In this document: piece after piece, positions 31,529-52,342 of the stretch
How positions within the stretch are numbered: the stretch's first letter is position 1
How the letters are laid out: each line of letters begins with the position of its first letter
Assembly: GCF_012489685.1 (NCBI RefSeq)
Contig: NC_080046.1
Coordinates: forward strand, 64,805,984-64,869,983
Reading direction: 5' to 3'
From: Lotus japonicus
Lineage: Eukaryota > Streptophyta > Magnoliopsida > Fabales > Fabaceae
Length of the DNA: 64,000 nucleotides
The notes under the pieces: model-generated
Told to the model about the DNA's origin: nothing
The model's database searches: none
What the model saw: the letters and a program-made list of their open reading frames with translations, nothing else
Position numbers and translations under genes: made by a program

Positions 31529-31709
31529 AGATTAATTTCTATCCACTGACGGTGTAAAAAGTTTTACACCATCATTCAATCACAAACTTCCATTTTTCTA
31601 TTTTAGATATTATTAAATTCAAAATTAATTGTGAGCTAACAAAATGGAGGGATGTGATTGAGTGATGGTGTAAAATTTATTTACACCGTCGGTGCATAGA
31701 AATTAATCT
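31529..31709. mobile_element. MITE with near-perfect inverted ends
   Basis: AGATTAATTTCTATCCACTG at the left mirrors AGATTAATTTCTATGCACCG (reverse complement of the right end). The inversion continues through GACGGTGTAAA and TTACACCATCA.TCAATCACA, leaving a short centre. This is the common legume 'GACGGTGTAAA' foldback family; its superfamily is unclear from the ends alone. Confidence 0.7.
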
Positions 31710-33048: not shown

Positions 33049-35019
33049 ATGGCGGCGGCTCCAGCTGCAAAACTCGCGTTCACCACCGTGCCTTCACCGT
33101 CTTCACGTCCCCAGAATCACGTTCTCAAATTCACCATCCCATTTCCCTCATACCCAAACAACTCCTCTCCTCATTCCCGATGCCGTTCTCTTCAAATCTC
33201 CGCTTCCCTCTCAAATCCCACCCCCACCGCCGCCTCAGCCTCCACCGCCGTCGCAACTGAAAATTTCACCTCCCGATTTTCCCTCGACGAGCCCCGCAAG
33301 GGTGCTGACATCCTCGTCGAAGCCTTAGAGCGCCAAGGCGTGACAGATGTATTCGCCTACCCCGGCGGCGCGTCGATGGAGATCCACCAGGCCCTGACAC
33401 GCTCCTCCACCATCCGCAACGTCCTCCCCCGCCATGAGCAGGGTGGAATCTTCGCCGCCGAAGGCTACGCTCGCTCCTCCGGCCTTCCTGGTGTCTGCAT
33501 CGCCACCTCCGGCCCCGGCGCCACCAACCTCGTCAGTGGCCTCGCCGATGCCTTGCTTGACAGCGTCCCCCTCATCGCCATCACCGGCCAAGTCCCCCGC
33601 CGCATGATCGGCACCGATGCTTTTCAGGAAACCCCCATCGTCGAGGTAACACGTTCCATCACCAAGCACAATTACCTTGTTCTAGATATAGATGATATCC
33701 CTAGGATTGTGAATGAGGCTTTCTTCTTAGCAACTTCAGGTAGACCTGGTCCTGTGTTGATTGATATACCTAAAGATATTCAGCAACAGCTTGCTGTTCC
33801 AAATTGGGATCAACCTATTAAGCTACCTGGGTATATGGCTAGGTTACCTAGGTCACCCTCTGATGCACTCTTAGAGCAGGTTGTGAGGTTGCTTTTGGAA
33901 TGTAAGAAACCTGTTCTCTATGCTGGGGGTGGTAGTTTGAATTCTAGTGAGGAATTGAGGCGTTTCGTTGAGCTTACCGGGGTTCCTGTTGCTAGTACTT
34001 TGATGGGTCTAGGTGCATACCCCACTGCTGATGAGAATTCTCTCCAAATGCTTGGTATGCATGGAACTGTATATGCTAATTATGCTGTGGACAAGAGTGA
34101 TCTTTTGCTTGCCTTTGGGGTGCGGTTCGATGATCGTGTCACGGGGAAGCTCGAGGCTTTTGCTAGCCGGGCTAAGATTGTTCACATTGACATTGATTCT
34201 GCTGAGATTGGGAAGAACAAGCAGCCCCATGTGTCGGTCTGCGCGGATTTGAAGTTGGCTTTGAAAGGAATTAATCGTATCTTGGAGAGCAGGGGAGTCA
34301 AGGGTAAACTTGATTTTAGAGCTTGGAGAGAAGAGCTGAATGAGCAGAAGCTCAGGTTTCCATTGCAATTCAAGACATTTGAGGAAGCTATTCCTCCACA
34401 GTATGCCATACAGGTTCTTGATGAGCTCACCAATGGAAATGCTATAATTAGTACTGGGGTCGGGCAGCACCAGATGTGGGCTGCTCAATTTTACAAGTAC
34501 AAGAGACCCAGACAGTGGTTAACATCCAGTGGTCTTGGTGCGATGGGGTTTGGATTGCCTGCTGCTATGGGAGCTGCTGTGGCTAACCCCGGTGATGTTG
34601 TGGTTGACATCGATGGTGATGGAAGTTTTATGATGAATGTTCAGGAGCTGGCCACTATAAAAGTGGAGAATCTCCCTGTTAAGATATTGTTGTTGAACAA
34701 TCAACACTTGGGTATGGTTGTTCAGTGGGAGGATCGCTTCTATAAATCTAACAGAGCTCACACTTATTTGGGAGACCCATCCAATGAGAAAGAAGTATTC
34801 CCAAACATGTTGAAGTTTGCAGATGCTTGTGGTATACCAGCAGCTCGTGTGACGAAGAAACAAGACCTTAGAGCAGCAATTCAGAAAATGCTCGATACTC
34901 CTGGCCCCTACCTTCTCGATGTCATTGTACCGCACCAAGAGCATGTTTTACCCATGATTCCAAGTAATGGTACCTTTCAGGACGTGATAACTGAGGGTGA
35001 TGGCAGGAGAAGTTACTGA
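33049..35019 (+). CDS. ALS: Acetolactate synthase (acetohydroxyacid synthase) catalytic subunit
   Basis: This plastid enzyme catalyses the first common step of valine, leucine and isoleucine synthesis, using ThDP, Mg and FAD. It is a single exon, as usual for plant ALS, of 656 residues from the first ATG (MAAAPAAK); the nine codons upstream in frame lack an ATG. Residues 1-75 are a Ser/Pro-rich transit peptide. Landmarks: [13 protein letters not shown] (81-93), YPGGAS (104-109), catalytic Glu130 in [32 protein letters not shown], the ThDP motif [14 protein letters not shown], and [17 protein letters not shown]. All classical herbicide-target positions carry the sensitive residue: A108, P183, A191, D362, W560, S639 (Arabidopsis number minus 14). 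An AATATATAG box at 32961 may be the TATA. Its 3' end is duplicated as a pseudogene at 43.1 kb. Confidence 0.98.
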
Positions 35020-35945
35020 TTTGCTGAGCCAAATTTATCTTGATACTGGTTTTGTATAATAGTAAGCTATCATCTCCTAGTTTTTGTATTAGTGTTGGCA
35101 AATAAGACAGTGAAATCATTTTGTCACTGAAACTGATTTTACTCTCTACCTCTTGTGTGGTTATATGATGATGTCCTTTCGGTATAGGATCTTATGGTCA
35201 TTTTAAATGTATAAGACTCATCTCGCTGAGTTCACTGTCTCTTTAGGTCGTATTTATACTTCTACTCAACTTCAAGACAACAATGTAAGCTACCTGATTG
35301 AAAACTTTAATATAAGTCAATTTTAATAATAATTCATTTAAAGTGAAGAAGAGGATAAATTTATACAAAAATACTACGAATTATGCTGTTTCCCTCTCGT
35401 AACCTAAACTATGATTTATGCTCAATATTTACTGAGTGATTATAAAAATTAAAAAATGATCATGAAAATAGAACAGACCTATGAACAATATTTTTATTTG
35501 AACGTGAAATATGAACAATACTTACAATAAGAAAATTAATAAATTAAGTGTATTTAGTTTTTCTAGTACTATATATTTAAGTTAGCTAATCTATTATCAA
35601 AACGAATCCATGAAAAAAAAATATGAAATTGTATAAATTCAACAGTACACGAGGATAATTGATTGAGTATCTTTATTTATTTTTCATCAAATCAACTTCA
35701 GATCTTTAGAATAAAAAAATAGACAATTCCCTCTAATCATCATTATGACAGTCAAGATACTTCACTTCACTAATATCATTAATTGGATACAAGTGTAAAA
35801 TAGAATATTGTAATTATTGCCATAATAACATCAATCAGAGATTTCTTCCCGAATTAAAACATGTTCTTTAAGACATTATTTTCACTCATGATTCTCTCTT
35901 CACGTGTCTGTTTAGAAATTAGAACAGGAAAAAACATAGGCAGTA
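35020..35945. other. ALS 3' flank and AT-rich spacer
   Basis: ALS 3' UTR, then very AT-rich sequence without recognisable features. This part is missing from the downstream duplication copy beyond about 35080. Confidence 0.45.
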
Positions 35946-36956
35946 ATGAAGAATCAAGAATCCACTTCAAACCATCTCTCACGTTCTATGAAGCAGAAGC
36001 ACCACCATCATCACTTGCTTCTTCGTCTTGTGTTAGCCCCTTTCATCCACAAGCTCTTTTCTTTGTCAAGCACCGAGGAAAAAGAACCAAGCTTTTCTCT
36101 TGAACAAATCCCAATAGCAATGCCAAACAAGGAGACTATATCGTACAACATGGTTTCCAATTCTTGCAGCAATGGCTTAGTGTGCCTATACTCAGATTTT
36201 CACTGTGGAAGGGAAATTGCTCTATGCAACCCAACAACAAGGGATGTTAAGTTTCTTCCAATTTCCAATTTGGTCACGGAAGTAAAAGATGGCATGGTGC
36301 TAGGAGTTGGAATGGGACATGATTATTACAAAATTGATGATTACAAGGTTGTGAGAATGTGGATTAGTTACCTTGAATGTCGCTGCAAGAAGTACATTGT
36401 TGAGGAATATTGCTTGAGTACTAAATCATGGAGAATAATTGATAGTGCCAATCCATATTGTTGTGATTTTGAAGCTTCTTGTTTCGCTATGCATTTCGAT
36501 GGGTTTTATTTTTGGTGGGCTAAGCTTCAAGACTCAAGTCCAGTAGTTGTTGCATTGGATGTGGGAGGAGGGTATTTCCGCAAGGTACATTTGCCGAAAC
36601 GCGCTGATATTGGTAGCGAAAGTGGAAGATATTTGGGCGTTTTGAATGGCTTTGTATCATTGGTTTGCCGCGATGATCGTCATTCCAACAATGACAACTT
36701 AGACATTTGGGTGATTGATGGAGCCGTTTTCAATAGTTGTACTTCTTGGACCAAATTGAGGACTCTAAATCTTGCTCCTTGTACTCCATTGACGTTTTGG
36801 AAGGGTAAGGAGCTTCTTGTGAAAATGTTTGATATGCTGAAATCCTATGATGTTGAGAGTGGTGAGATTCATCATGTTAGTACTGATGTTGGAGGACAAG
36901 GGATTGCTGATATATGTCAAGCTATACCTTGTGTGAAGAGTCTTGCTTCAATTTAG
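35946..36956 (+). CDS. F-box-associated (FBA) domain protein lacking an F-box
   Basis: A single open frame of 336 residues. It begins in the short segment that normally follows an F-box (SNHLSRSMKQKHHHHHLLLR), then shows the F-box-associated beta-propeller signature SNGLVCLYSD...LCNPTTRDVKFLP, a YKIDDYKVVRM strand, EYCLSTKSWRII, HFDGFYFWWA and a C-terminal VESGEIHHV. In F-box/FBA proteins this region binds the substrate of an SCF ligase. The 40-residue F-box expected ahead of it is absent: an in-frame TAG lies three codons before the ATG and the upstream sequence is not F-box-like. So it is either a truncated gene or a decaying pseudogene with an intact remainder. A 3' fragment is duplicated at 44.1 kb. 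Confidence 0.7.
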   Translation: MKNQESTSNHLSRSMKQKHHHHHLLLRLVLAPFIHKLFSLSSTEEKEPSFSLEQIPIAMPNKETISYNMVSNSCSNGLVCLYSDFHCGREIALCNPTTRDVKFLPISNLVTEVKDGMVLGVGMGHDYYKIDDYKVVRMWISYLECRCKKYIVEEYCLSTKSWRIIDSANPYCCDFEASCFAMHFDGFYFWWAKLQDSSPVVVALDVGGGYFRKVHLPKRADIGSESGRYLGVLNGFVSLVCRDDRHSNNDNLDIWVIDGAVFNSCTSWTKLRTLNLAPCTPLTFWKGKELLVKMFDMLKSYDVESGEIHHVSTDVGGQGIADICQAIPCVKSLASI

Positions 36957-37141
36957 GGATGAAATTAGTATTAGTTAGTAGCTAACCATGATTATGATGA
37001 TGCTAATTCGCTTTAAAAGTGGATTAATTCTTCAATGTACAATGTTTGATCAAGCATGAATTTTGATAGATGAATCTGAGTTTTATTTTTTTCACCCAAC
37101 TAATTGCTCTTAATAAGTTTCATTTTGGTCACAAATATGTT

Positions 37142-37347
37142 ATTTCTTTAGGAAAATGCTGTGGGGCACGACTTTGGGCCTCGTGCACCACGCACGAAGC
37201 ACTTTCTGGCGGTTTTAAACCGCCAGAAACCGTAACTTTTTTTTTTGACAGTTGTAATTTTGTGGCGGTTTAAAACCGCCACTAAATGACTCTCGTGCAT
37301 CATTCGTACCTGTTTTGTCGTACCATATAGCATTGTTCATTTCTTTA
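37142..37347. mobile_element. Mutator-type MITE (188 bp) with 9 bp target-site duplication
   Basis: The direct repeats ATTTCTTTA at 37142-37150 and 37339-37347 flank 37151-37338. The ends GGAAAATGCTGTGGGGCACG and (reverse complement of the right end) GAACAATGCTATATGGTACG form inverted repeats that run inward to two perfect GGCGGTTTTAAACCGCC-type palindromes. The element is absent from the equivalent place in the downstream duplication copy (about 44520). Confidence 0.85.
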
Positions 37348-37559
37348 TGCAAATTTCGGAATATGTAGTTAATATGTCATTCTTATTTGGAGCAAATAAC
37401 AACACCTTATTCAGAGGCAGAGCAAATAAAAAATAGTTAATAAATTTGTTCTTTCAATATTTCAAAAAATTTGTATATTTAAAATTGAAAATTGAACTAA
37501 TAGTTTATTCTAGTGGCAAGGCAATTAAGAAAGGAAAAGAAAAATTGAAGTAAACCCTG

Positions 37560-37563
<4 letters not shown>

Positions 37564-37599
<36 letters not shown>
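37564..37599. repeat. (TA)18 microsatellite
   Basis: Uninterrupted TA dinucleotides upstream of the chimeric gene; the same position in the other duplication copy (about 44670) has only CTATATTATATGG. Confidence 0.9.
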
Positions 37600-37602
<3 letters not shown>

Positions 37603-37795
37603 ACAAAACCCTGATTTACATGGATTTGTTATTGAATTTCTATACTCCAAGTCCAAATAGGGTTTTCAATTTCGTGATTTTGGACTCAAAACTGGTTGCA
37701 AATTGCAATTGAATGATTAATTAACGCTTCTTCGATTTCATACACTCAACTATACATACTTTGCAGACGAATTTGGGGTTTCAAATTCCATTCCA

Positions 37796-40700
37796 ATGTC
37801 TGACGTCGAAAATCATACCTTCCATCGTGGTTCTTCAAAATCTTCCCCCGATAAGGTGCATTTCTCAAATAATTTATTTCTCTACTTTGAAGCATTTTTT
37901 TTTTCTGATTTAGGTTTTTGTTTTGCTTGATGAATGTTTTGCAAATTATTTTGGGAAATTTAAGGATGCCCCTTTTGTCTGGTTTTGTTTCATTGATCTC
38001 AAACATGAATTTTTGCCCCATTAGCAGAGTTTAAGGTAGTAATTGTTCATAAACCAGCTCAAATGAGACAACTTTCTTACTGGGTCCATGTCATATGATG
38101 TGATACTCCCGGATGTTATTTTACTTAGATGTGTTTTAATCACATATCACAGTGATTAGATTGCTTGTTCACTCTATATTTTCGCGAATATTTCCTTTAA
38201 CAATAACAACGAGTTTTTATCGTACTAGGTGAGATCGGCTATATGAATAAAATGTCATAATGTGATGTCTTGTATATTGTGCAGTTCAATGAGATTAAAA
38301 TTTGTATTGTGTACTGTTTGTTTGCTTTTTGGTTTATTTTTTTGGCTTGTGTCTCTTTAAGTGTTGGTCAGATGAGATGACGATGTTTTTAAATTACTAC
38401 CTCAGTCAAATTCTCATGGATCTGGTCGTGAGAGTACGAGGATGAGGAAGCAAGATGGAGAGAGGAGAGATTTTCATGACCGCCATCACAGAGACTACAA
38501 GGATGGAGGCTTTAACGGAAGGGACAGATATAACAGTTATAATCGTCATCGCAGCCGTGATTATGATAGGTTAGACTATTTAACATTATGTTCTCCTCTA
38601 TTCTAGTTAGATTTTTTCTAAAAAGTTTATGGGTTAGCACTTCTCTATGTGCAGCTTTTATCTATTTATCATTTTATTTACTGGGTACGTATGTTCCTTC
38701 TGTTAATTGTAGGCATAATGACCGTGTTAAAGATGGTGAAAGAAGGCACAAATATGAAACACATTCTAAGAGATCCCGGGGAGAATCTAGATCCCCATCC
38801 AGATCCCCTTCTCGTTCAGAGAGGTATTTGGACTTCAATTTTCTTCGTTGTTCTTTAGGGATAGCTTGTTTGATTTCTAAACCTATTGATTTAGCCTCAC
38901 TTTTCATCTCATTTAGCACAATTAAAATATATAGTGGCATTTTAGGCTTAGTAATAATTGATTGACTCACCTGTGCTTCCATCTGTTCAAAGGTGAAACA
39001 GACATAAATTGAAAACAACTTACTTCGAAAAATTTTGTGGTCATTCTTGTGTACATTTTTCTACAAATAAAAGTGGCATCCCGATGTTTTAAAGCTCCCT
39101 AAATGGAGGGATCCAACTTACTTCTATTTTGGTTTGCAGCAAAAGGATCTCTGGCTTTGACATGGCACCTCCTTCTGCAGATGGCACATCTACTGTTTCA
39201 GGTTTTTACTTAACCTCTTCATTCAGGTTGCGTTTGGGTAAAGAGTATGGCAATAAGCACTTATCACGTATGCATTTATTCATAAGCTTATTTGGCAAGT
39301 GCTTATTTATAAGCTAATCTCAAAAGCTTATGAAAACAAACTAAGAGCTTATATATAGGTCAGAGGCTATTTTCCACAAACTTACCCAAACACTTGCATA
39401 AGGGCTTATGCTATAAGATAAACTCGAATGAAGTCTTCCAAACACAACCTTAGTATATTACATTTACGGACTCCTCTTCAGATTATGTATGCAAACTTCA
39501 TTTTTGTCTGCGTATTCAGTCTGCAATAGTTCTTGCATTAATTTAAGTGTTTTTGTTGATAGAAGAAGAAGAAGAAGAGGTCGAAGTTGAAGAAGAGGAA
39601 GAGGAAGAGGAGGAGGAAGTGGAAGAGGAAGAAATCAAGGAGGAGGAAGTCGAGCAGGAGGAAGTCGAGGAGGAGGTAGAGGAGGTGGAGGAGGAGGAGG
39701 TAGAGGAGGTGGAAGAGGAGGAGGAAGTGGATGAGGAGGAGGAAGTGGAAGTGGAGGAGGAAGTGGAAGTGGAAGAGGAGGAGGAATTGGAAGAAGAGGT
39801 GGAAGAGGAAGAGGAAGAGGAAGAGGAAGAGGAAGAGGAAGAGGAAGAGGAGGTGGAGGTGGAGGTGGAAGTGGAAGAGGAAGAGGAAGAGGAAGAGGAA
39901 GAGGAAGAGGTAGAGGAAGAGGAAGAGGAAGAGGAAGAGGAAGAGGAAGAGGAAGAGGAAGAGGAAGAGGAAGAAGAAGCAGCAGAGGTGGAACAGGAGG
40001 GCAAAGGGGCAGTGCCCAATTCTCTACCTGATGCCATCATTGATGACAAAGGGGCTGTGCCGGATTCTCTACCTGAAGTAGCAGTTGAGGTGAAACAGGA
40101 GGACAATTGGGCAGTGCCAGATGCTCTACCTGAAACAGTTGAGGTGAAACAGGAGGACAATGGGGCAGTGCCAGATTCTCTACCTGAAGCAGTTCAGGTG
40201 AAACAGGAGGACAATGGGGCAGTGCCAGATTCTCTACCTAATGGCAACAATGATGGCAAAGGTTTTTCAGTTCATAAACTAATTATGATTTTTTCCTGTC
40301 ACACAATTGTTTTCCCTAATAAATTTGGTATTTTGATACTGCATTTGCTCACTGTCCTCTAGGTTTGGCCTACTTTTTGATTATTGTTGAGTTTATGTTG
40401 TTATCGCGTGTCTACATATAGGATTTTATATTGTATGGTCGAGATGATAAATGATAGTGGGGGAAATGTGAGAAAGTTAGGAAAAGTAAAAACCAGGGAG
40501 CAATCTCCGAGAAACTGAATGTTTCATATGTTACTGAATTCTGCGTTGAGTTTTTTGCATTTTCTTTTTTCTCTTGGATTGAACTGTCTTTCATTGGATC
40601 CATTTTTTGCACCTTGGCCGCCTCTCTTGGTAGTCTCTTAGCATAACCATACTTGCTGATTTTTGTGCCTAATACTACAGATTAACTAGTCTGCTGCTTT

Positions 40701-43077
40701 GATTTGATATTGCTCCTTGTCCAGTTTTCTATAACTTGTTTCGTTGGAGGTAATATAAACCTCTCTATTGTCATTAGGAAATGATTTAGAGATGAGCATT
40801 TTTTTATTTTTCCAATTTCTTGATTCCGCTTTTATCTTCATTGTAGGTTCGAGTCAACTTATGGGGAAAGAGAAGAACTTGGGGTCAGTTTCGTCTGCCG
40901 CTGAAAACCTTGAAGTAATGGCACCATCTACTAACCATCACATGGGAGAGAATAATGCCATGCTTAAAGCATCTGTTCCTTCATATGAGACGCCAACGCT
41001 GAAAAAGGGGGAGTTTCACCCAAATCTTGAAATTTCTAGTCAATCAAAATCAAGAGAAAACCTGATTTCTGCTGAACATGGCAACAGTCAAGGATTGGAT
41101 ATCGATGTTAAAAATGCTGGATCACTTATACAGGGGAAAACCCTCAGAGTGTGCGGTGAACCAGGTAGCAATAGTAAAGCTTACTTATACGGTGTTGAGG
41201 ACATAGATTCTAGGACTATCAAGTCATCTTGTGATGCTGAAAAAGATGATGTTATTGGTCTTCCACCAAGCCATTGCTTTGTTGAGGATGCTGATGGTGA
41301 TCAGAATTCTAAGAACAAAGTTTTGCAGTCAGAGATGGAGTCAAGAATTGATGTGAAACAAATGACATCAAGGTTTGGTCATTGTTGTTCAGTATGTCCT
41401 TTTATGTTTTTCTGTTTACTTATAAGATGGCCAAACTTTAATTTACACAGCATGTCGTCTCTTTCATAAGTAACTTTTTGCCCTTTAACAATTTGTTTAA
41501 GTTGCTTCTTATAAAGTTCCTGTCATTAGCATTAATTGATTAACTCCTGACAGGAGGACTATAAGTCTGTCTCCCCGTGCTGAGATTAAAGATGGAAACA
41601 AACGTATATGTGATTTTTTTGCTAAAGGATGGTGCATCAGGGGTAGTTCTTGTACCTTTCTTCATATAAAGGAGGTTGTGAATAATACTGATCGGGAGGC
41701 CGAGGTAGACTTTGTTGATGCACATCAGATGCGAGGCTTAAGCTTGGAAGAAGGTATACCAAATAACTTTTGGTCAACCTGTTCAGGAATTTTCTCTGTA
41801 AACATGTTTCTAATAGTGCTATTTGTCCTTTAACAGGTGTTAAGGACAATGTTCACACATCAAGAATGGTTAGTACTGAAATTCCATTTACTGCTTTAAA
41901 ATGAAAGCATATTTTGCATTCTTCTGAATTGCTTTTGAAATGAGTATGCAGAATGAGGAAGAAGCAAGTCTAAGTTGGCATCGATCTCATGAAAATCAGA
42001 AGTTTCTGCCAAGAGACAACTTGTTTCCGGAGAACAGATTTGCCTTTAATGCATCAAACAAATATATCAGCCCAAACCTTTCCTCATATTCATCCCGTGC
42101 AGAGCCTTTTGTTGGTTCATCTAGGGTTTCATCACATTCCTCTGGATATAAATCTAAAATCCGTTCTTATGATTGGGAGCCTTCCGTACCATTTCAACCA
42201 TCCTTTTTTATTACTTCTATGAATGCATCCATCCCTAGAGATCTTTATGGCCCTGTCCGAGACAGAATTGAGATACTTAATATAGGAGATGGGTCTTTGA
42301 AAGCCACCATTTTAACTGAAGGACCAGCTTCATCACAGGTACGAACATACGCTGCTGTAGTTGGGAAACATATGTCTGATCTTAATGAGGACAAAAGCTC
42401 AGTGTCTTCTCATAATAGATTTTATGAAAATGAGCCCAACAAAAGTTGTGTTCCTCGTGAAAAAGATTGTCTTGCAACTGAAACAGAGATAACATCAGGA
42501 ACTTATGAGAACTACCAAAATGGTAAAATAGGCATGGGACAACATACCTTTGGTGTCAAAGATGTTATGAAACCAGAGAAAGGAAGGGCTGAGCATGATA
42601 CTAGACATCATGGTGAAGGATCAAGTCACAAAAAGAGAAGAGTAGAAATGGATAAGAAAATTCATGAAATGGATGTTGACTTTCAAGCGAATGGAAGTAT
42701 GCAGAAAGAAACAAGGGAACTGAGAAATTTTCGTGCGGCTCTTGTTGATCTCGTAAAAGAGTTGTTGAAACCATCTTGGCATGAGGGCCGTCTCAGCAAG
42801 GACTCGCATAATCTGATAGTTAAAAAATCAGTTGACAAGGTCATTAGCACCTTGGAGCCTCACCAGATTCCGACCTCTGTAGATACTGCTAAGCACTATG
42901 TGACTTCATGTCGGGGGAAAATTGCAAAGCTGGTCACGGTAGGTATCCTATTTATAGAAATATTGTAATTTGTCAATGAAAGTGCATGGACATTGTTGTT
43001 TGGTTGTGATTTGTTCTCCATTTGACAGAAATATCTTTTATTTGCAGGGATATGTCACTAAATATGGCAAATCTTGA
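37796..43077 (+). CDS. Chimeric gene: U2AF65 RS-domain N-terminus fused to FES1-like CCCH protein
   Basis: Ten exons: 37796-37855, 38406-38569, 38713-38823, 39140-39201, 39563-40261, 40847-41372, 41554-41753, 41837-41868, 41952-42938, 43048-43077. All junctions keep phase, giving 956 residues. Exons 1-4 (132 residues) duplicate the first four exons of the U2AF65 gene at 44880: Arg/Ser-rich, SRGESRSPSRSPSRSE, then RISGFDMAPPSADG. Exon 5 encodes about 140 residues of Glu/Val, then 18-residue repeats (VKQEDNGAVPDSLPE). Exon 7 has a CCCH zinc finger, ICDFFAKGWCIRGSSCTFLH. Exon 9 has YDWEPSVPFQPSF and a conserved C-terminal region; exon 10 ends GYVTKYGKS. The CCCH part matches FRIGIDA-ESSENTIAL 1 (C3H27), a nuclear factor acting with FRIGIDA in flowering control. 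Without the fusion there is no ATG before exon 6. Whether it is spliced as drawn is inference. Confidence 0.8.
39226..39449. mobile_element. MITE in intron 4, upstream copy
   Basis: The ends GGTTGCGTTTGGG and CCAAACACAACC are inverted repeats, and the inside has AAGCTTAT/ATAAGCTTA inversions. The same insertion sits at 46309-46531 in the U2AF65 gene, so it was present before the duplication. Confidence 0.75.
39563..39985 (+). repeat. Purine-only GAA/GAG/GTG tract encoding poly-Glu
   Basis: About 420 bases are almost entirely A and G on the plus strand, with sparse T and C, built from GAGGAA and GAGGTG units. The frame used by the chimeric gene gives Glu with scattered Val. The opposite strand gives a false Ser-rich open frame. 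Extended purine-pyrimidine mirror tracts can form triplex DNA. Confidence 0.9.
40084..40245 (+). repeat. Three 54 bp tandem repeats (18 residues each)
   Basis: The units start at 40084, 40138 and 40192 and encode VEVKQEDNxAVPDxLPE(A/T) with few changes. Two more diverged units precede them from about 39985. The period is a multiple of three, so copy-number change would keep the frame. Confidence 0.9.
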
Positions 43078-43092
43078 TATGTCACTAAATAT
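43049..43092 (+). repeat. 27 bp tandem duplication at the FES1-like stop codon
   Basis: GATATGTCACTAAATAT occurs at 43049-43065 (inside exon 10) and again at 43076-43092, overlapping the stop codon and leading straight into the ALS-derived sequence TTCCCAAACATG. It marks the breakpoint between the CCCH gene and the second duplication copy. Confidence 0.9.
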
Positions 43093-43372
43093 TCCCAAAC
43101 ATGTTGAAGTTTGCAGATGCTTGTGGTATACCAGCAGCTCGTGTGACGAAGAAACAAGACCTTTGAGCAGCAATTCAGAAAATGCTGGATACTCCTGGCC
43201 CCTACCTTCTTGATGTCATTATACCACACCAAGAGCATGTTTTGCCCATGATTCCAAGTAATGGTACCTTCCAGGACGTGATAACTGAGGGTGATGGCAG
43301 GACTAGTTACTGATTTGCTGTGTCAAATTTATCTTGATACTGGTTTTGTATAATAGTAAGCTATCAGCTCCT
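43090..43372 (+). pseudogene. ALS 3'-terminal pseudogene fragment
   Basis: Corresponds to the last ~74 codons of ALS plus about 60 bp of 3' UTR. It lacks a promoter and all catalytic sequence. An in-frame TGA replaces an arginine codon (CTT TGA GCA against CTT AGA GCA in the functional gene), and several other substitutions are present, including the residue before the final SY. Confidence 0.93.
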
Positions 43373-43409
43373 TTTTTTTTTTGGAAGACAGTCTCCCCTA
43401 TTGTTTGAT

Positions 43410-43735
43410 TTTTTTTTTGATAAGCAATGAAATGATGTATAAGAAAGAGGCACAAGGGGTGCCAACCCTTACACAAAAATAATAAGTACATGAAGAAACA
43501 GAAAGATAACAGAACTGTAGAAAATAAAACAGCAAAATGGATGGGAGCGAATGGAAAACAGAACAGATAGGAAACAGGGGAAAAACTATGATAGGGCCCT
43601 TCAAAGATAGAAAACAGCCTTCCATACAGTTCGAGGGTCAGGCCAGGCAGCTGCAATAATTTTCTTTCCCTTCAAAGTAACCAAACTAATCAACATCTGG
43701 TCTTTCTCAAGTGGATAAGACACTTCTACATAGCT
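43410..43735 (-). mobile_element. 5'-truncated LINE tail with 16 bp target-site duplication
   Basis: TCCCCTATTGTTTGAT at 43394-43409 and 43736-43751 flanks a minus-strand insert starting with a T-run and GATAAGCAATGAAATGATG, then GCACAAGGGGTGCCAACCC. Same LINE family as at 23.1 and 32.7 kb. No coding capacity. Confidence 0.85.
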
Positions 43736-43801
43736 TCCCCTATTGTTTGATAACTGGTCTGTTGGGCCTAGCATTTTTGGTGGACTTGTTATCTTTGTTA
43801 T

Positions 43802-43834: not shown

Positions 43835-44090
43835 TTATCTTTGTTATATTTCTTTTTCCTATCTTGTTCTTTGTAAATTGCTTATGGGTTGAAGTATACC
43901 TTTGGGTTTCTTATCACATTTTTGACTTATCTAAAAAAAAATCTCATGAACAAAAAAACTATCTAAATTAAACATATATAATAACCAAAAAAAATAAATA
44001 CATTGGGTAAGTATGATGACAACAGACCTTATGTTGAAAGATTTTAATAATATTGGTTATAGATTATTAGTACATTGGGTAAGTATGATG

Positions 44091-44340
44091 GCAACTTGGA
44101 CATTTGGGTGATGGATGGAGCCGTTTTCAATCTTGGACCAAATTGAGGGCTCTAAATCTCGCTCCTTGTACTCCATTGACGTTTTGGAAGGGGAATGAGC
44201 TTCTTGTGAAAATGATATGCTGAAATCATAAAATGTTGAGAGCGGTGAGATTCATCATGTTAGTATTGATGTTGGGGGACAAGGGATTGCTGATATATGT
44301 CAAGCTATACCTTGTGTGAAAAGTCTTGCTTCTATTTAGG
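44091..44340 (+). pseudogene. F-box-associated gene 3' fragment
   Basis: Matches about 36704-36956 (GACATTTGGGTGATGGATGG ... CTTGCTTCTATTTAG). Small deletions (the CACTGTTCTTGG part and TTTG before ATATGC) and a stop (AAATCATAAAATG) break the frame. The preceding GTACATTGGGTAAGTATGAT is itself a local direct repeat (43999 and 44071). Confidence 0.85.
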
Positions 44341-44879
44341 GATGAAATTAGTATTAATTAGTAGGTAACCATGATTATGATGATGATAATTCCCTTTAAA
44401 AGTGGATTAGTTCTTTAATGTACAATGTTTGATCAAGCATGAATTTTGATAGGTGAATCTGAGTTTTATTTTTTTCACCCAACTAATTGATCTTAGTAAG
44501 TTTCTTTTTCGTCAGAGATATGTTATTATCACATTCTTATTTGGAGGAAATAATAATAGTAATAAATTATTATTTTTTGTTTCAAAACATTTATTGTATA
44601 TTTAAAATTGAAAATTGAACTAATAGTTTATAACAGTAGCAATTAAAAAAGGAAAAGTAAAATTGAAGTAAACCTATATTATATGGATTTGTTATTGAAT
44701 TTCTATACTCCAAGTCCAAATAGTGATTTCAATTTCGTGATTTTGGACTCAAAGCTGGTTGGTTGGGTTGCAAATTGCAATTGAATGATTAATTAACGCT
44801 TCTTCGATTTCGATTTCGGTTTCATACACTCAACTATACATACTTTGCAGACGAATTTGGGGTTTCAAATTCCATTCCA

Positions 44880-47800
44880 ATGTCTGACGTCGAAAATCAT
44901 ACCTTCCATCGTGGTTCTTCAAAATCTTCCCCCGATAAGGTGCATTTCTCAAACAATTTATTTCTCTACTTTGAAGCATTTTTTTTCTGATTTAGGTTTT
45001 TGTTTTGCTTGATGATGTTTTGCAAATTATTTTGGGAAATTTAAGGATGCCCCTTTTGTCTGGTTTTGTTTCATTGATCTCAAACATGAATTTTTGCCCC
45101 ATTAGCAGAGTTTAAGGTAGTAATTGTTCATAAACCAGCTCAAATGAGACAACTTTCTTACTGGGTCCATGTCATATGATGTGATACTCCCGGATGTTAT
45201 TTTACTTAGATGTGTTTTAATCACATATCACAGTGATTAGATTGCTTGTTCACTCTATATTTTCGCGAATATTTCCTTTAACAATAACAACGAGTTTTTA
45301 TCGTACTAGGTGAGATCGGCTATATGAATAAAATGTCATAATGTGATGTCTTGTATATTGTGCAGTTCAATGAGATTAAAATTTGTATTGTGTACTGTTT
45401 GTTTGCTTTTTGGTTTATTTTTTTGGCTTGTGTCTCTTTAAGTGTTGGTCAGATGAGATGACGATGTTTTTAAATTACTACCTCAGTCAAATTCTCATGG
45501 ATCTGGTCGTGAGAGTACGAGGATGAGGAAGCAAGATGGGGAGAGGAGAGATTTTCATGACCGCCATCACAGAGACTACAAGGATGGAGGGTTCAATGGA
45601 AGGGACAGATATAACAGTTATAATCGTCACCGCAGCCGTGATTATGATAGGTTAGACCATTTAATATCATGTTCTCCTCTATTCTAGTTAGGTTTTTTCT
45701 AAAGAAGTTTATTGTTTAGCATTCTCTATGTGCAGCTTTTATCTATTTATCATTTTATTTACTGGGTGCGTATGTTCCTTCTGTTAATTGTAGGCATAAT
45801 GACCGTGTTAAAGATGGTGAGAGAAGGCACAAATATGAAGCACATTCTAAGAGATCCCGGGGAGAATCTAGATCACCATCCAGATCGCCTTCTCGTTCAG
45901 AAAGGTATTTGGACTTCAATTTTCTCCGTTGTTCTTTAGGGATAGCTTGTTTGGTTTCTGAGCCTATTGATTTAGCCTCACTTTTCATCTCATTTTTAGC
46001 ACAATTAAAATATATAGTGGCATTTTAGGCTTAGTAATAATTGATTGACTCACCTGTGCTTCCATCTGTTCAAAGGTGAAACAGACATAAATTGAAAACA
46101 ACTTACTTCGAAAAAGTTTGTGGTCATTCTTGTGTACATTTTTCTGCAAATAAAAATGGTATCCCGGTGTTTTAAAGCTCCCTAAATGGAGGGATCCGAC
46201 TTACTTCTATTTTGGTTTGCAGCAAAAGGATCTCTGGCTTTGACATGGCACCTCCTTCTGCAGATGGCACATCTGCTGTTTCAGGTTTGTACTTAACCTC
46301 TTCATTCAGGTTGCGTTTGGGTAAAGAGTATGGCAATAAGCACTCATCACATATGCGTTTATTCATAAGCTTCTTTGACAAGTGCTTATTCATAAGCTAA
46401 TCTCAAAAGCTTATGAAAATAAACTAAGAGCTTATATATAGGTCAGAGGTTTTTTCCACAAACTTACCCAAACACTTGCATAAGTGCTTATGCTCTAAGA
46501 TAAACTCAAATGAAGTCTTCCAAACACAACCTTAGATTACATTTACAGACTCCTCTTCAGATTATGTATGCAAACTTAATTTTTGTCTGCGTATTCAGTC
46601 TGCAATAGTTCTTGCATTAGTTTGAGTGTTTTTGTTGATATTGTCTATATATTTATAAGGTGTGATAAATTTACTTTTGAAACTAAGAATCATTCTTGTG
46701 TTGTTTGGCTGTTGTGTGTGGTTTTGTTTCTGGCTTGTTTTTATGGTTGGGTAAGAAGGCAATGTTGGGCTGCATGTCCTACCAACCTACCTGTCAGCGT
46801 ACACCCTGTTGCATATTCAATGGATGGCCTATACATTCTGTAGCTGGACCTTTCACTCTCAAGTGGCAAAAGTTGCCTATATGCCGTGATCAAACTCATT
46901 TCTAAATTTTTATATTATTCATTCTATATATTAGGTATGATATATTCTCTTTCATTTTGGCTTTATTTATTCCGAAATGGATGCCTGTAGGCTAGTCTTA
47001 TTGTTTGAGCTAGTGACGACCTTCTAAACCACGCAATATTTTTCTGTACCAATTATCTTCTATATACTGTTGTTTTCTTAGAAGTTAATAATGCAGGTCA
47101 AACACTGGGTATTAATCATTTAAATCAAGGAACTGCACAAAACTTCTCACTGTTTGGGATATCGCAGCCCCAGGTGCTAGTTTGTCATAAGTATCACGAC
47201 ATCAGATTTTCTGTTATTTTAATCGTATAAAAACTAGATGGTTTAATTTGTCACAGATAGGAGCACTTTCCTTAATGCAAGTTCAGCCTATGACACAGCA
47301 GGTTGTGCAACTCCTGATTCATTTGTGGCATTGTGTGTTTCTAGGCTTATATGTCTTTATGACAGTTTCTAATTTCTTGTTTTAAAGGCTACAAGGCACG
47401 CACGGAGAGTGTACATTGGTGGGCTTCCTCCTTTGACTAATGAGCAGGTTCTCTATATGGATGCACTCCCACATAAGATCTAAACTATTTTTAAATGATT
47501 GATGACGCTTAGAAGTATTGCTTTATAGTTCTATGTGAACAGGTTTACCTACTTTAGAAGGATAAGTAATATGTTGCAATTATATTAAGACAATATATTG
47601 TGTCAAAAAGATTCAAAGTTAATTATGCTAGTTTTCTAAAATGAACTCTTGCCAGAAAAGACCCTTTCAAGGGAAAGTTTGAGCTTATTCACAGTCCAAG
47701 AAAAATATTTGATAATCCTTTGTGCTAGCTGCATTATTTATGTTTTTACTTCTATTTTTGTTATGCTGGGGGGTGGGGGTGTTGTATTGTATAAGAGTAA

Positions 47801-50800
47801 TTAATAATCCAATGAATATAGCTTACTATGCTGTGCTATGTGCATTCCATTAACAAAATTGGGTTAGATTGCAACTCTCATACTCTTGGAATTGTTTCCT
47901 TGTTTTTTTGGAATTGTTTTGAGGTTCTTTTTTTTTTTTTGTTACAGTCAATTGCAACATTCTTCAGCCATGTCATGACTGCTATTGGGGGAAATTCTGC
48001 TGGAGCAGGTGCTGTATGCATGATAATTTATTTGTGATTCGATGCACCTGTATATGAGTTGACGCACTATACTCAATACCTTTTTAGGGTTTAAGGCTCA
48101 ATAACTTTTTATAGAACGTTGTTTCTTTAAAATTCAATGTTTGAATTATTAGTAATCATGTTCATGTTGACATTGTGTTTTAAATTTAAAGTAAACTGCA
48201 CTATACAGGTTTCATTACCAAATAGTTTTATGTTATGCAAATTTGAATTTGACTACATGTTTTCTTATAGTTCAACATGTTGATAAAATATTCAAAAGGA
48301 AATTGTCTTTAAAGAGCCATTGCACAGTATAAGTGTGAGTCTTATGCTTGTGGCAAGTGGCAACACACACACACACGCATAAAATGTTCTTATTTATTTA
48401 TTTATTTCCAAGATTGCTTGGTTGTACTGTTTATTCAAAATTTTCTGATTAATAGGTGATTCTGTTGTCAATGTCTACATCAATCATGAGAAGAAATTTG
48501 CATTTCTGGAAATGAGGACTGTTGAAGAAGCTAGTAATGCAATGTCATTAGATGGGATAGTATTTGAGGCAAGTACTGGCATGTTAATCTCTTAAAATGA
48601 CATCGTAAAGTGTTACATTAATATGAGATAAATGATAGAAGGGATTATGAGCATGTTACTTGTCATGCAGTCCATGATTTTATTTTCCTTCATAAATTAT
48701 AGCTGAATGCTTGGTCAATATGGAAATTGCCATCTGCAGTTGGTTTGGGAGTGGAGTGCATCCTAGAGCTAGGGATACCTGATAGGCTGATACATTTCCG
48801 TGCACTTTTTCACAATTTTTTTTCTTTGATTTTTATTTTTCATATATGCCCATGGATGTGGTTTTTAGTTTTTTACAGTTGAAGATTGCTTGCTGGTAAA
48901 GTAAGCATTTCACATAACATAACCATAAGTTCTTTACCTTTGTAAGAGGCTATTATCTAGTGCATTCTCAATCTGATGCTTCATGTAGCCTGTTTGTTCC
49001 TCTGACTTTTCTAGAATGTGCTCTTGTCAGCCTCCAAGTCAGATTCCCCCTTCTCTCGTCTAGTGCCAGAGTTTTTTCTCCTCGTAAGTGTCAGCCCATG
49101 AACTAAATTATATGTGACTGCCCTCTCGGCTGGGAAATCCCTCTGCGTAGCTCAATAATAAATTCCCACCCTTTCATCTTCTTCTTTGAATCTTATTTGT
49201 TTAATTAATTGACTAGAGGACAAGGAATGGGGTTCCGCCTGGAAGAATGCATTTCCCTAAACGAGTTTGTCTTAATTGAAACTGGAGAAGGAACATCAAC
49301 CGGAGTCTAAGAGGGTGGGCGCAAAGACCCGCATCGAGCTTCCCCGAGGGACTTAGAGAGAGTTCTCTTTAGGTATTCTCTACCTATCCACCTGTCTCTC
49401 CATCTCCGGCCAAGGCCAACCGACACCTTCATCTTTCTATCCATCCCCATGGCTCTGACCAGCAACTGAAAATAAACACCCACCTGCATAACCTTTCTCC
49501 GCTCTGTAGAAATGGATTGCGAGTTCACTTAGGCAATTAAATGCTTGGTAATTTCTATTGAATTTATTATTTGAGAGAAAACTACATATTGACACGTTTC
49601 CTGCGGTGATATCTCAGGGTGTTTCTGTGAGGGTTCGTAGGCCTACAGACTATAACCCTACATTAGCTGCAGCTCTAGGTCCTTGCCAGCCAAGTCCATA
49701 CCTTAACTTATCTGCCGTTGGATTGTCTGGAGGGTAAGCTTACAGTTTGGTTTGATGCCTATCTCTACATTTTATATGGATTTTACATAGTATTCGAGCC
49801 AGTTCTGTTTTAACCAATCTGGATTTGTTCCAGTACAATTGGTGGAACTGACGGACTTGATCGCATCTTTGTGGGTGGGCTGCCATACTACTTTGCTGAA
49901 GAACAAATTAGAGAATTGCTCCAAGCTTTTGGGTAATGTTATCATGCATTTATTTGGTTTTTTGTCTACTCTAAAATTTTATTTTGACATGCAATTGATA
50001 CCTATGGATTGAGATTTTCTTTACAAACACAAACCTGACTTGTTCATGCTGTGGTGGCCTTTGACCCATTGCAGCCCTCTCCGGTCTTTTGATCTAGTTA
50101 GGGATAAAGAAACTGGAAATTCTAAAGGATATGGTTTCTGCATCTATCAGGTGAAGGAAGATGTAATGTATAATCTGTAGATGTTCATGATGCTATTACT
50201 TTTCAACTGTTACTTCTTTTAAGTATGGTAACTTTCTAACAAAGTATGAAGCTTGTTTAATATCTTTCTCAAAATTTATTTTCTGGGAACAATCTTGTTA
50301 GGATCCAGCGGTAACAGACATGGCTTGTGCCTCTCTCAATGGCCTTAAAATGGGCGACAAAACATTGACTGTAAGGCGTGCTACTGTCAGGTTGGTCTTT
50401 TTACTGAAATAAGTATTATATGCTTGAACTTTGATTTTATCCATTGCCTTATATTATTTTTTGATGTTACTGTGTTACTTCATGGCATACAGAACTTCAA
50501 CTTTCCTTCCTTCAATATTTTCAAATGCTATAAAATATGAACATGGATCTGTGACTCATGGAGAAATAGAAGGGAGAAATTTCAATTGAGAAGAAAGGAT
50601 CAATGAGGAAGTAGTTTACTGAGACTTTAACTGAATAATTTATCAGTCAATGAGTCCTTTTTAATTGGCAAACCTCCGGCAGTTTAAAGTTTACTATTTT
50701 AAAAATCCTTAAATAGTATTTTTCAAAATAGGAAACTCTAATTTGATAGATAAGAATTATTGCATTAAATCTCTAATTTCTAAACCCCTTAATATCCTGA

Positions 50801-52342
50801 TTGCTGATTAATCATACTTACCTTAGATATATGGAATAGAACATTTTATATATGCTGCCAAGCTTCTGTATATTGGTTTCGATAACCTTCAATCGCCTGT
50901 GCTTTGGTGTTTTGGCCTTTTGGGGTAGATCCTCTATTATTTTCTGCTTTTTGTGTTGGAACAAGGAAGTTGAAAGGGATTTAGATGAATCTTTTAAACA
51001 TTGTTCTGATATTCTTCAATGCATTTGTATTGTTTAAAATATGAAATCTTCAATTGTTTATATTTTTACCTCTTTTTGTGTATTAAATTCATTGTAATGT
51101 ACTTGGGCAGTGGACATTCTAAAACAGAGCAGGAACACATCTTTGCACAGGCTCAACAGAATATAACTATGCAGGTGAAGCACACTAATTTCACCTTCTA
51201 TTTTTCTACTACTTTTACATTTACTTTTGCTCATGATTATATATGTTCAATTGACAGAAAGTAGCTTTAGAAGTGGTCGGGTTAAATATCCCAGGAGTTG
51301 AAAGAGTGCCAACAACAATTGATGAAAGCGCCACCAAAGTTTTATGTTTGACTGAGGTGATTCTACTTTCTACTACTTTCATAATTTTATTTATTAATCA
51401 AAATACTTGATGCATAGCTTTTCTTAGGTGATTGGCTTTCTATTTCTTTTTCCTCCCTCTACTTGTTTCCACTATGTCATAATTTACTATGTTTGTTAAC
51501 AATTTGTCTCAAGTGATACTTGTAGTCTTTCCCTTCACCTCTTTTGCCTGGTTTTCTTTAAAGGCCATTACAACTGATGAATTGATGGATAATGAGGAGT
51601 ATGAAGAAATAGTGGAGGACATGCGGGATGAATGCGGCAAATTTGGTATGCTTGTTGCGTAATATGTTGTGTAATCTGCTTAAAGCTGTCCATTTAAGTC
51701 ATTATAGTATGTTTCATTTTCTCTAGTTTAAGGAGTAAGTTCAATCTATTTAGAGATATAATTAGATGTTCAGGCAACACTAAACCTTTGCCTGCCTGAA
51801 GATCTTTTTAAACTCGTTTAAGTTTTGGAAAACCATGCTTGGGAATTAACTTCCAAGACTGTTCAAAGGGATGGAAAGAACTAGAAATTATATATTAAGT
51901 TTTAGAAGGGTTATTTTGGCATGTCCACAAAGGTCTTTGGGCTTCTGTTTGATTTTTTTTCTTCTACTTGGTTTGACTTCTTCTTAGGGACCTTGATGAA
52001 TGTTGTTATTCCTCGTCCAAATCCCAGTGGAGAGCAAACTCCCGGCATTGGAAAGGTATGTAGTTCACTTTACGGTGCATTTGAGTTCTCCCGAGTCGCG
52101 TCAGTTGCTATGATAGACATGTAGCTCCACCTTTTCAGTGTGTCAATTCATGTGGTAGGAATGATTCAAACTCAGTTGTTTGAATGTGTTGTTTTCTCCT
52201 GCAGGTTTTCTTGGAATACTCTGATACAGCTGCTTCTTTCGCGGCCAAAAGTGCGCTGAATGGTAGAAAATTTGGTGGCAATATGGTGACTGCTTATTAT
52301 TATCCAGAAGAAAAGTTTCATAATATGGAGTTTGATTTATAA
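44880..52342 (+). CDS. U2AF65: Splicing factor U2AF large subunit (U2AF65)
   Basis: U2AF65 binds the polypyrimidine tract at 3' splice sites and recruits U2 snRNP. Eighteen exons: 44880-44939, 45487-45650, 45794-45904, 46223-46284, 47097-47173, 47257-47301, 47388-47447, 47948-48008, 48456-48568, 49618-49733, 49834-49932, 50075-50150, 50302-50390, 51111-51174, 51258-51356, 51564-51645, 51988-52055, 52205-52342. All join in frame to 527 residues. Domains: RS-rich N-terminus (about 1-115), RRM1 from RRVYIGGLPP (about 178), RRM2 with RIFVGGLPYYF and GYGFCIYQ (about 295-375), and the C-terminal UHM (about 410-527) with VFLEYSDTAASFAAKSALNGRKF and AYYYPEEKF. Intron 9 uses a GC donor (GAG|GCAAGT). 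TTTGCAG just before the ATG suggests an intron in the 5' UTR. Copies of exons 1-4 form the chimeric gene upstream. Confidence 0.95.
46309..46531. mobile_element. MITE in U2AF65 intron 4
   Basis: Same insertion as at 39226-39449, with GGTTGCGTTTGGG and CCAAACACAACC ends, differing by a few substitutions and a small deletion just outside the right end. Confidence 0.75.
49015..49545. other. Organelle-like insertion in U2AF65 intron 9
   Basis: This stretch differs from the surrounding T-rich intron: balanced composition, both strands rich in GGAA/TTCC, with phrases like GGGTGGGCGCAAAGACCCGC and TTCCCCGAGGGACTTAGAGA, in the style of plant mitochondrial non-coding DNA. It has no long open frame. 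I cannot name a matching mitochondrial locus, so this is a compositional call only. Confidence 0.35.

Follow-up and report, generated by a model that had tools for sequence, protein, structure and literature searches.

New proteins are known to arise through gene fusion. The closest described class is that of chimeric gene duplicates which, as characterised by Katju (2012, PMC3449122), combine parts of several donors by duplication at the DNA level, with the donor copies persisting. Here, we describe such a case in the model legume Lotus japonicus, within a 64,000-nucleotide window of assembly GCF_012489685.1 (contig NC_080046.1, positions 64,805,984 to 64,869,983, forward strand). A ten-exon gene joins the arginine/serine-rich (RS) N-terminal region of U2AF65 in frame to most of a FRIGIDA-ESSENTIAL 1 (FES1)-type CCCH protein, and is followed by the 3′ end of a third gene, which we take to encode acetolactate synthase (hereafter ALS-like). 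Comparison of these copies indicates that the locus is very probably a young chimeric gene, produced by a rearrangement of three loci. At least two separate loci donated its parts, and the donors can be identified. It differs from the class so described in having three donors, one of them ~0.4 Mb away, a product that stays in frame, and a breakpoint that carries a splice acceptor. The case is also young enough that the repair scar can still be read, as can the donors and the two breakpoints. Positions are those of the window throughout, and features are collected in Table 1.

An earlier, sequence-only reading had proposed an in-frame fusion of U2AF65 with a FES1-like protein. Explicit splicing reproduces the predicted frame exactly: ten exons spanning 37796-43077 give 2871 nt and 956 amino acids, with agreeing phases, GT-AG borders at 9/9 introns, and one terminal but no internal stop. 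In exon 5 the frame used is open, and the other two hold 7 and 12 stops. The joining of a U2AF65 N-terminal region to a FES1 body is upheld by our analysis, but the event involves three loci, the ALS-like gene supplying the 3′ end. A paralogous donor could be located for each half of the chimera, and hence the fusion is not due to chance.

For the U2AF65 half, a genomic DNA search (at its sensitivity) found exons 1-4 at two places, both in the window: the chimera itself and a full-length U2AF65 gene that adjoins it on the downstream side. Exons 1-4 are indeed a copy of those at 44880-46284, and the two sets differ at 11 of 397 coding nt (9 synonymous, 2 replacement). Of the first 132 residues, 130 are identical to the neighbouring gene, whose product has the RS-rich N-terminus, and a Lotus japonicus U2AF65 protein (P0063; UniRef I3T7G4) shows 98% identity over the same span. 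The full-length gene was placed from the tblastn pieces of P0063, which cover residues 1-98 and 112-527. The likeness is wider than had been stated, running from 37420 to 39561 (= 44544-46640) and including ~360 bp of intron 4 as well as the promoter-proximal region, so that a copy of the latter does lie in front of the fusion, as the sequence-only reading had it. The alignment of 37607-37795 with 44671-44879 covers 188 nt, of which 8 differ, and has three gaps (9, 12 and 1). A (TA)n tract at ~37563-37600, upstream of the chimera, is missing from the promoter region of the other U2AF65 copy. The chimera thus shares with U2AF65 the promoter-proximal region, the 5′ untranslated region (UTR) and the first 132 residues, whereas RRM1, RRM2 and the C-terminal UHM belong to U2AF65 only. 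No RRM family matched the chimera in Pfam at E 0.05 or better, and therefore binding to polypyrimidine tracts is not expected. Against solved structures, a search with U2AF65 did no more than confirm RRM relatives, and a U2AF35-binding motif sought in exon 4 gave two chance matches only; we do not claim this motif.

FES1 acts with FRIGIDA in flowering. That exons 5-10 encode a protein of this type, as first suggested from the letters alone, is borne out by a zf-CCCH Pfam match above cut-off (E 2.2e-6, residues 558-578 of the chimera; finger spacing, read in the sequence, C-x7-C-x5-C-x3-H) and by a search with a 586-residue query from the FES1 part, which gave 62 matches (best E 8.8e-240, several with 100% query coverage). 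The best named of these homologues carry the name FRIGIDA-ESSENTIAL 1. At the DNA level, the FES1 part matches the window, a 95% identical site on the same strand at C6:64435852-64438949, and one 42-base stretch elsewhere in the genome. The C6 site, ~0.4 Mb from the chimera on the same chromosome and in the same orientation, is the FES1 parent: it has an intact frame of six exons and 857 amino acids, starts with MSDPDSP, contains its own poly-Glu tract and lacks the RS region. A FES1 gene with its own 5′ end and without an RS domain, which the sequence-only reading had suggested seeking in related legumes, is therefore found in Lotus itself. A 342-aa protein (P0007) is equally near both FES1 copies, matching each at 8 of 17 sites, and we assign it to neither.

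Because the chimera begins inside the parental poly-Glu tract, ~60 residues of the native FES1 N-terminus are lost and 132 residues of the U2AF65 RS region stand in their place. The poly-Glu tract is longer in the chimera than in the parent (139 versus 113 residues). The remainder is typical of the FES1 family, with the CCCH finger, the DWEPS..PF and NIGDGSLKA regions, and the GYVTKYGKS end. Poly-Glu had been viewed as a separate element joined between the RS domain and FES1. We reject such a third partner, since the tract is native to exon 1 of the FES1 parent and a Glu-rich N-terminus (a 30-residue stretch with 18 or more Glu within the first 300 residues) occurs in 16/62 FES1 homologues. 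It extends to non-legumes, such as Hevea; the remaining homologues have less Glu, or are models or fragments that start later.

The arrangement of the copies speaks to how these parts came together. Self-comparison of the window reveals three repeats (34793-35085 = 43087-43379; 36691-37144 = 44088-44527; 37420-39561 = 44544-46640), meaning that a block made up, in order, of the 3′ end of the ALS-like gene, the F-box-like gene and the 5′ half of U2AF65 is present twice. The FES1 piece sits exactly between the two copies of this block, and both of its edges coincide with duplication breakpoints. At breakpoint 1, a 4-bp GATA (39558-39561) is common to the chimera, the U2AF65 copy and the FES1 parent. 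At breakpoint 2, FES1 homology stops at 43081, just past the stop codon, and the ALS-like match starts at 43087. Here, the 17-nt GATATGTCACTAAATAT of 43049-43065 recurs at 43076-43092, 27 bp downstream of its source, and leads into the ALS-like DNA, to which there is short homology. We considered an assembly artefact and rejected it, given that the copies differ by ~5% across most of their length.

Junction microhomology and copied filler are marks of template-switch and polymerase-theta repair. By this token, the microhomologies and the short copied filler would be attributable to replication template switching, of the type known as microhomology-mediated break-induced replication or fork stalling and template switching (MMBIR/FoSTeS), or to polymerase-theta end joining; we infer that the edges fit either pathway, and the sequence does not choose between them. 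In the proposed scheme, the block from the end of the ALS-like gene via the F-box-like gene to U2AF65 intron 4 was duplicated in tandem, and at the duplication junction lies a 3.5 kb FES1 piece, copied from the same strand of the chromosome at a distance of ~0.4 Mb. The resulting gene takes its promoter-proximal region, 5′ UTR and 132-aa RS region from U2AF65, continues with FES1 from within the poly-Glu tract to the stop, and ends in ALS-like 3′ sequence.

One consequence is that the acceptor AG of exon 5 (39561-39562) lies directly on breakpoint 1. A T-rich tract from U2AF65 intron 4 and an AG from the FES1 Glu codons, both visible in the sequence, together make up this new acceptor in the right phase, and its use in splicing is predicted. 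The agreement in frame is less coincidental than it appears, given that the correct phase is common to the AGs closest to the breakpoint. In 39500-39640 there are 25 AGs, of which 15 keep an open frame to the end and 10 lose it, and in 39546-39576 all seven keep it. From the in-frame share of nearby AGs, we infer that agreement was likelier than one in three. Poly-Glu repeats can render a fusion tolerant of splice-site choice, as illustrated here.

Divergence between the copies bears on both the number of events and their age. Differences amount to 33/814 in introns 2-4 of U2AF65 and 55/1037 in the introns of FES1, and the ALS-like and F-box-like pieces together have 43/731, a comparison that leaves out U2AF65 intron 1 and the U2AF65 5′ flank. 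The three sources agree at P 0.24, consistent with one event. In U2AF65 intron 1, the copies differ at 1/547 positions, as against 33/814 in introns 2-4 (Fisher P 9e-7), and identical runs extend over 37736-37869 and 37934-38458 (525 bp). Gene conversion has probably occurred between the U2AF65 copies at 37736-38458 and ~44820-45540, from exon 1 through intron 1 into the first part of exon 2. Outside this probable tract, noncoding divergence is ~5%, which suggests an age of roughly 4 million years at a substitution rate of 6-7e-9 per site per year. The locus might instead have formed in two steps, a simple tandem duplication and a later insertion of FES1 at its junction. The errors on the divergence estimates are wide and would allow two events close in time; however, both edges of FES1 fall on the duplication breakpoints and the divergences concur, which makes separate events improbable in our estimation.

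The low divergence also argues against an RS-polyE-CCCH architecture that is ancient and common to many plants. The Glu-rich FES1 N-terminus is itself found in several plant families, as would fit such an origin. However, none of the 62 FES1 homologues, many of which are fragments or lack the N-terminus, shares more than one five-residue word with the Lotus U2AF65 RS region. Conversely, 58/58 matches to the RS region carry an RRM and are 525-588 aa long (candidates of ~526-1673 aa), and the Lotus FES1 parent is free of RS sequence. We reject an ancient architecture on these grounds and give it next to no credence; the sequence-only reading, which had named such orthologues as the finding that would overturn a recent fusion, was right to call the fusion new. 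A search among proteins of ~117-371 aa for the fusion N-terminus (212-residue query, region 1-134) gave 107 candidates and no match. We do not take this as evidence that the gene is silent, since contigs assembled from short reads would be interrupted at the repeats. Similarly, protein searches recovered no L. japonicus fusion protein, but among the 62 matches to the FES1 part there is no L. japonicus FES1 by name either, and hence little can be concluded on expression from the lack of a database entry for the fusion. A literature search returned no publication pairing FRIGIDA-ESSENTIAL 1 with U2AF65, or Lotus japonicus with FRIGIDA-ESSENTIAL. Within what was searched, the U2AF65-FES1 fusion is new, and its general kind, the fusion gene, is already known.

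Evidence that the frame has been maintained is mixed. In a neutral simulation, the joint absence of stops and frameshifts from 2454 non-repeat coding nt has P 0.0008-0.004, and an intact frame under neutrality is unlikely on this basis. Absence of frameshifts alone has P 0.01-0.03, where the rate, 9 indels in 1851 aligned intron nt, may be too high for exons. As judged by substitutions between the copies, rather than on the chimera branch alone, constraint appears in two regions only: strongly in the RS region (dN/dS, the ratio of replacement to silent substitution rates, ~0.07 for exons 1-4) and weakly in the C-terminal half of FES1 (exons 9-10, dN/dS 0.42, P 0.017, without correction for the six regions tested). 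Exon 9 is less diverged than the FES1 introns (P 0.02).

Several observations weigh against a maintained, functional gene. The absence of stops is by itself weak evidence (P 0.10-0.17 in the neutral simulation, 0.03-0.21 by another estimate), such that the joint P leans mainly on the missing frameshifts, for which the rate was estimated on no more than 9 intron indels. The full U2AF65 copy, or gene conversion, may account for the conservation of the RS region. After poly-Glu, the FES1 part has 26 silent and 64 replacement changes, and its dN/dS (0.82 by our own count, 0.68 by NG86) does not differ from neutral (P 0.24). No constraint is detectable in the N-terminal half (exons 5-8, dN/dS 1.3), and the 60 codons around the finger carry 7 replacement changes and 1 silent change. 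The chimera has lost residues conserved in outgroups, namely P at 727 (11/11) and D at 581 (10/10 with a letter there). A sequence resembling a retro-insert lies close beyond the ALS-like tail. These data could be accommodated by an unexpressed chimeric pseudogene that arose by the same rearrangement, has an absent or inert product, and owes its open frame to youth, in keeping also with the failure of protein searches to find a fusion protein. A pseudogene sits less well with the lack of any stop or frameshift beside nine intron indels, with GT-AG kept at every intron, and with the FES1 parent, which has a similar number of replacement changes. We regard it as a serious contender, although not the expected outcome. 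When 58 replacement differences were compared with 11 outgroup proteins, 15 fell to the chimera and 18 to the parent, with 12 matching neither and 13 ambiguous; both FES1 copies are therefore changing at similar rates. The parent, too, has altered residues that are identical in 11/11 outgroups (chimera positions 599, 617 and 622). It is as if both FES1 copies have been relaxed since the duplication.

If the chimeric gene is expressed, a U2AF65-type promoter together with the RS region would be predicted to give a broadly expressed, nuclear variant of FES1. We see about an even chance that the locus is transcribed from this promoter and yields an RS-tagged nuclear FES1 variant whose function partly overlaps that of intact FES1. 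The Gifu genome paper describes an RNA-seq atlas (PMC7508351). A stronger proposal, that a single repair event with several templates gave rise to a functional gene and made its acceptor at the breakpoint, and that RS-tagged FES1 would act in splicing bodies, is put forward tentatively. It is also conceivable that only an internal promoter is active, with translation starting from the Met of exon 6 and exons 1-4 yielding aborted U2AF65-type transcripts. That Met lies in frame upstream of the CCCH finger, and the CCCH part, as the sequence-only reading remarked, has no ATG of its own before exon 6. However, the copied piece lacks the parental start codon, the first ~60 codons and the DNA preceding them, and several in-frame acceptors lie behind U2AF65 exon 4; we find an internal promoter unlikely. 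In Arabidopsis, U2AF65 mutants are altered in flowering time and FLC expression (PMC10145705, PMC6510283). The name FES1 is absent from both texts, so that a link between U2AF65 and FES1 would be new and testable.

Table 1. Coordinates of the chimeric gene, its breakpoints, its donors and neighbouring features in the window
Feature	Position	Strand	Basis
Chimera, exons 1-5	37796-37855, 38406-38569, 38713-38823, 39140-39201, 39563-40261	+	Explicit splicing
Chimera, exons 6-10	40847-41372, 41554-41753, 41837-41868, 41952-42938, 43048-43077	+	Explicit splicing
U2AF65-derived promoter-proximal region and 5′ UTR of chimera, paired with 44671-44879	37607..37795	+	Alignment
Chimera exons 1-4 with introns, residues 1-132, U2AF65 RS region	37796..39201	+	Match to 44880-46284
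Chimera exon 5: poly-Glu tract of 139 residues, then repeats	39563..40261	+	FES1 exon 1 minus ~first 60 codons
Chimera exons 6-10 with introns, rest of FES1, CCCH finger and C-terminal region	40847..43077	+	Pfam, homologues
Breakpoint 1, U2AF65 intron 4 to FES1 exon 1	39558..39562	+	Three-way comparison
Breakpoint 2, FES1 to ALS-like	43049..43092	+	Three-way comparison, BLAST ends
ALS-like 3′ end copy, predicted 3′ UTR of chimera	43087..43379	+	94.9% identical to 34793-35085
Full-length U2AF65 gene: second copy of 5′ half and only 3′ half seen	44880..52339	+	tblastn with P0063
Near-identity to full U2AF65 copy, probable gene-conversion tract	37736..38458	+	Identical runs, intron 1 counts
ALS-like gene, intact, 656 aa, donor of first part of 43087-43379	33049..35019	+	Open frame, Pfam
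F-box-like gene, first copy, 336 aa, open frame	35946..36956	+	Open reading frame, Pfam
F-box-like gene tail, second copy, truncated	44088..44527	+	90.7% identical to 36691-37144

Of the neighbouring genes, the ALS-like gene matches TPP_enzyme families of Pfam in three domains (E from 3e-51 or better to 8e-37), and its copied 3′ end holds the last 227 coding nt and 66 nt past the stop. The first F-box-like copy matches the Pfam family b-prop_At3g26010-like (F-box protein beta-propeller; E 8.5e-7). Just past the ALS-like tail, and hence the predicted 3′ region of the chimera, an insert of ~330 bp (43394-43751) starts near a T run and is flanked by a 16-bp direct repeat, TCCCCTATTGTTTGAT, at 43394-43409 and 43736-43751. 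It looks like a reverse-oriented short interspersed nuclear element or other retro-insert. Further upstream, an inverted self-match of ~180 bp at 31529-31709 (79% identical) is perhaps a small hairpin element.

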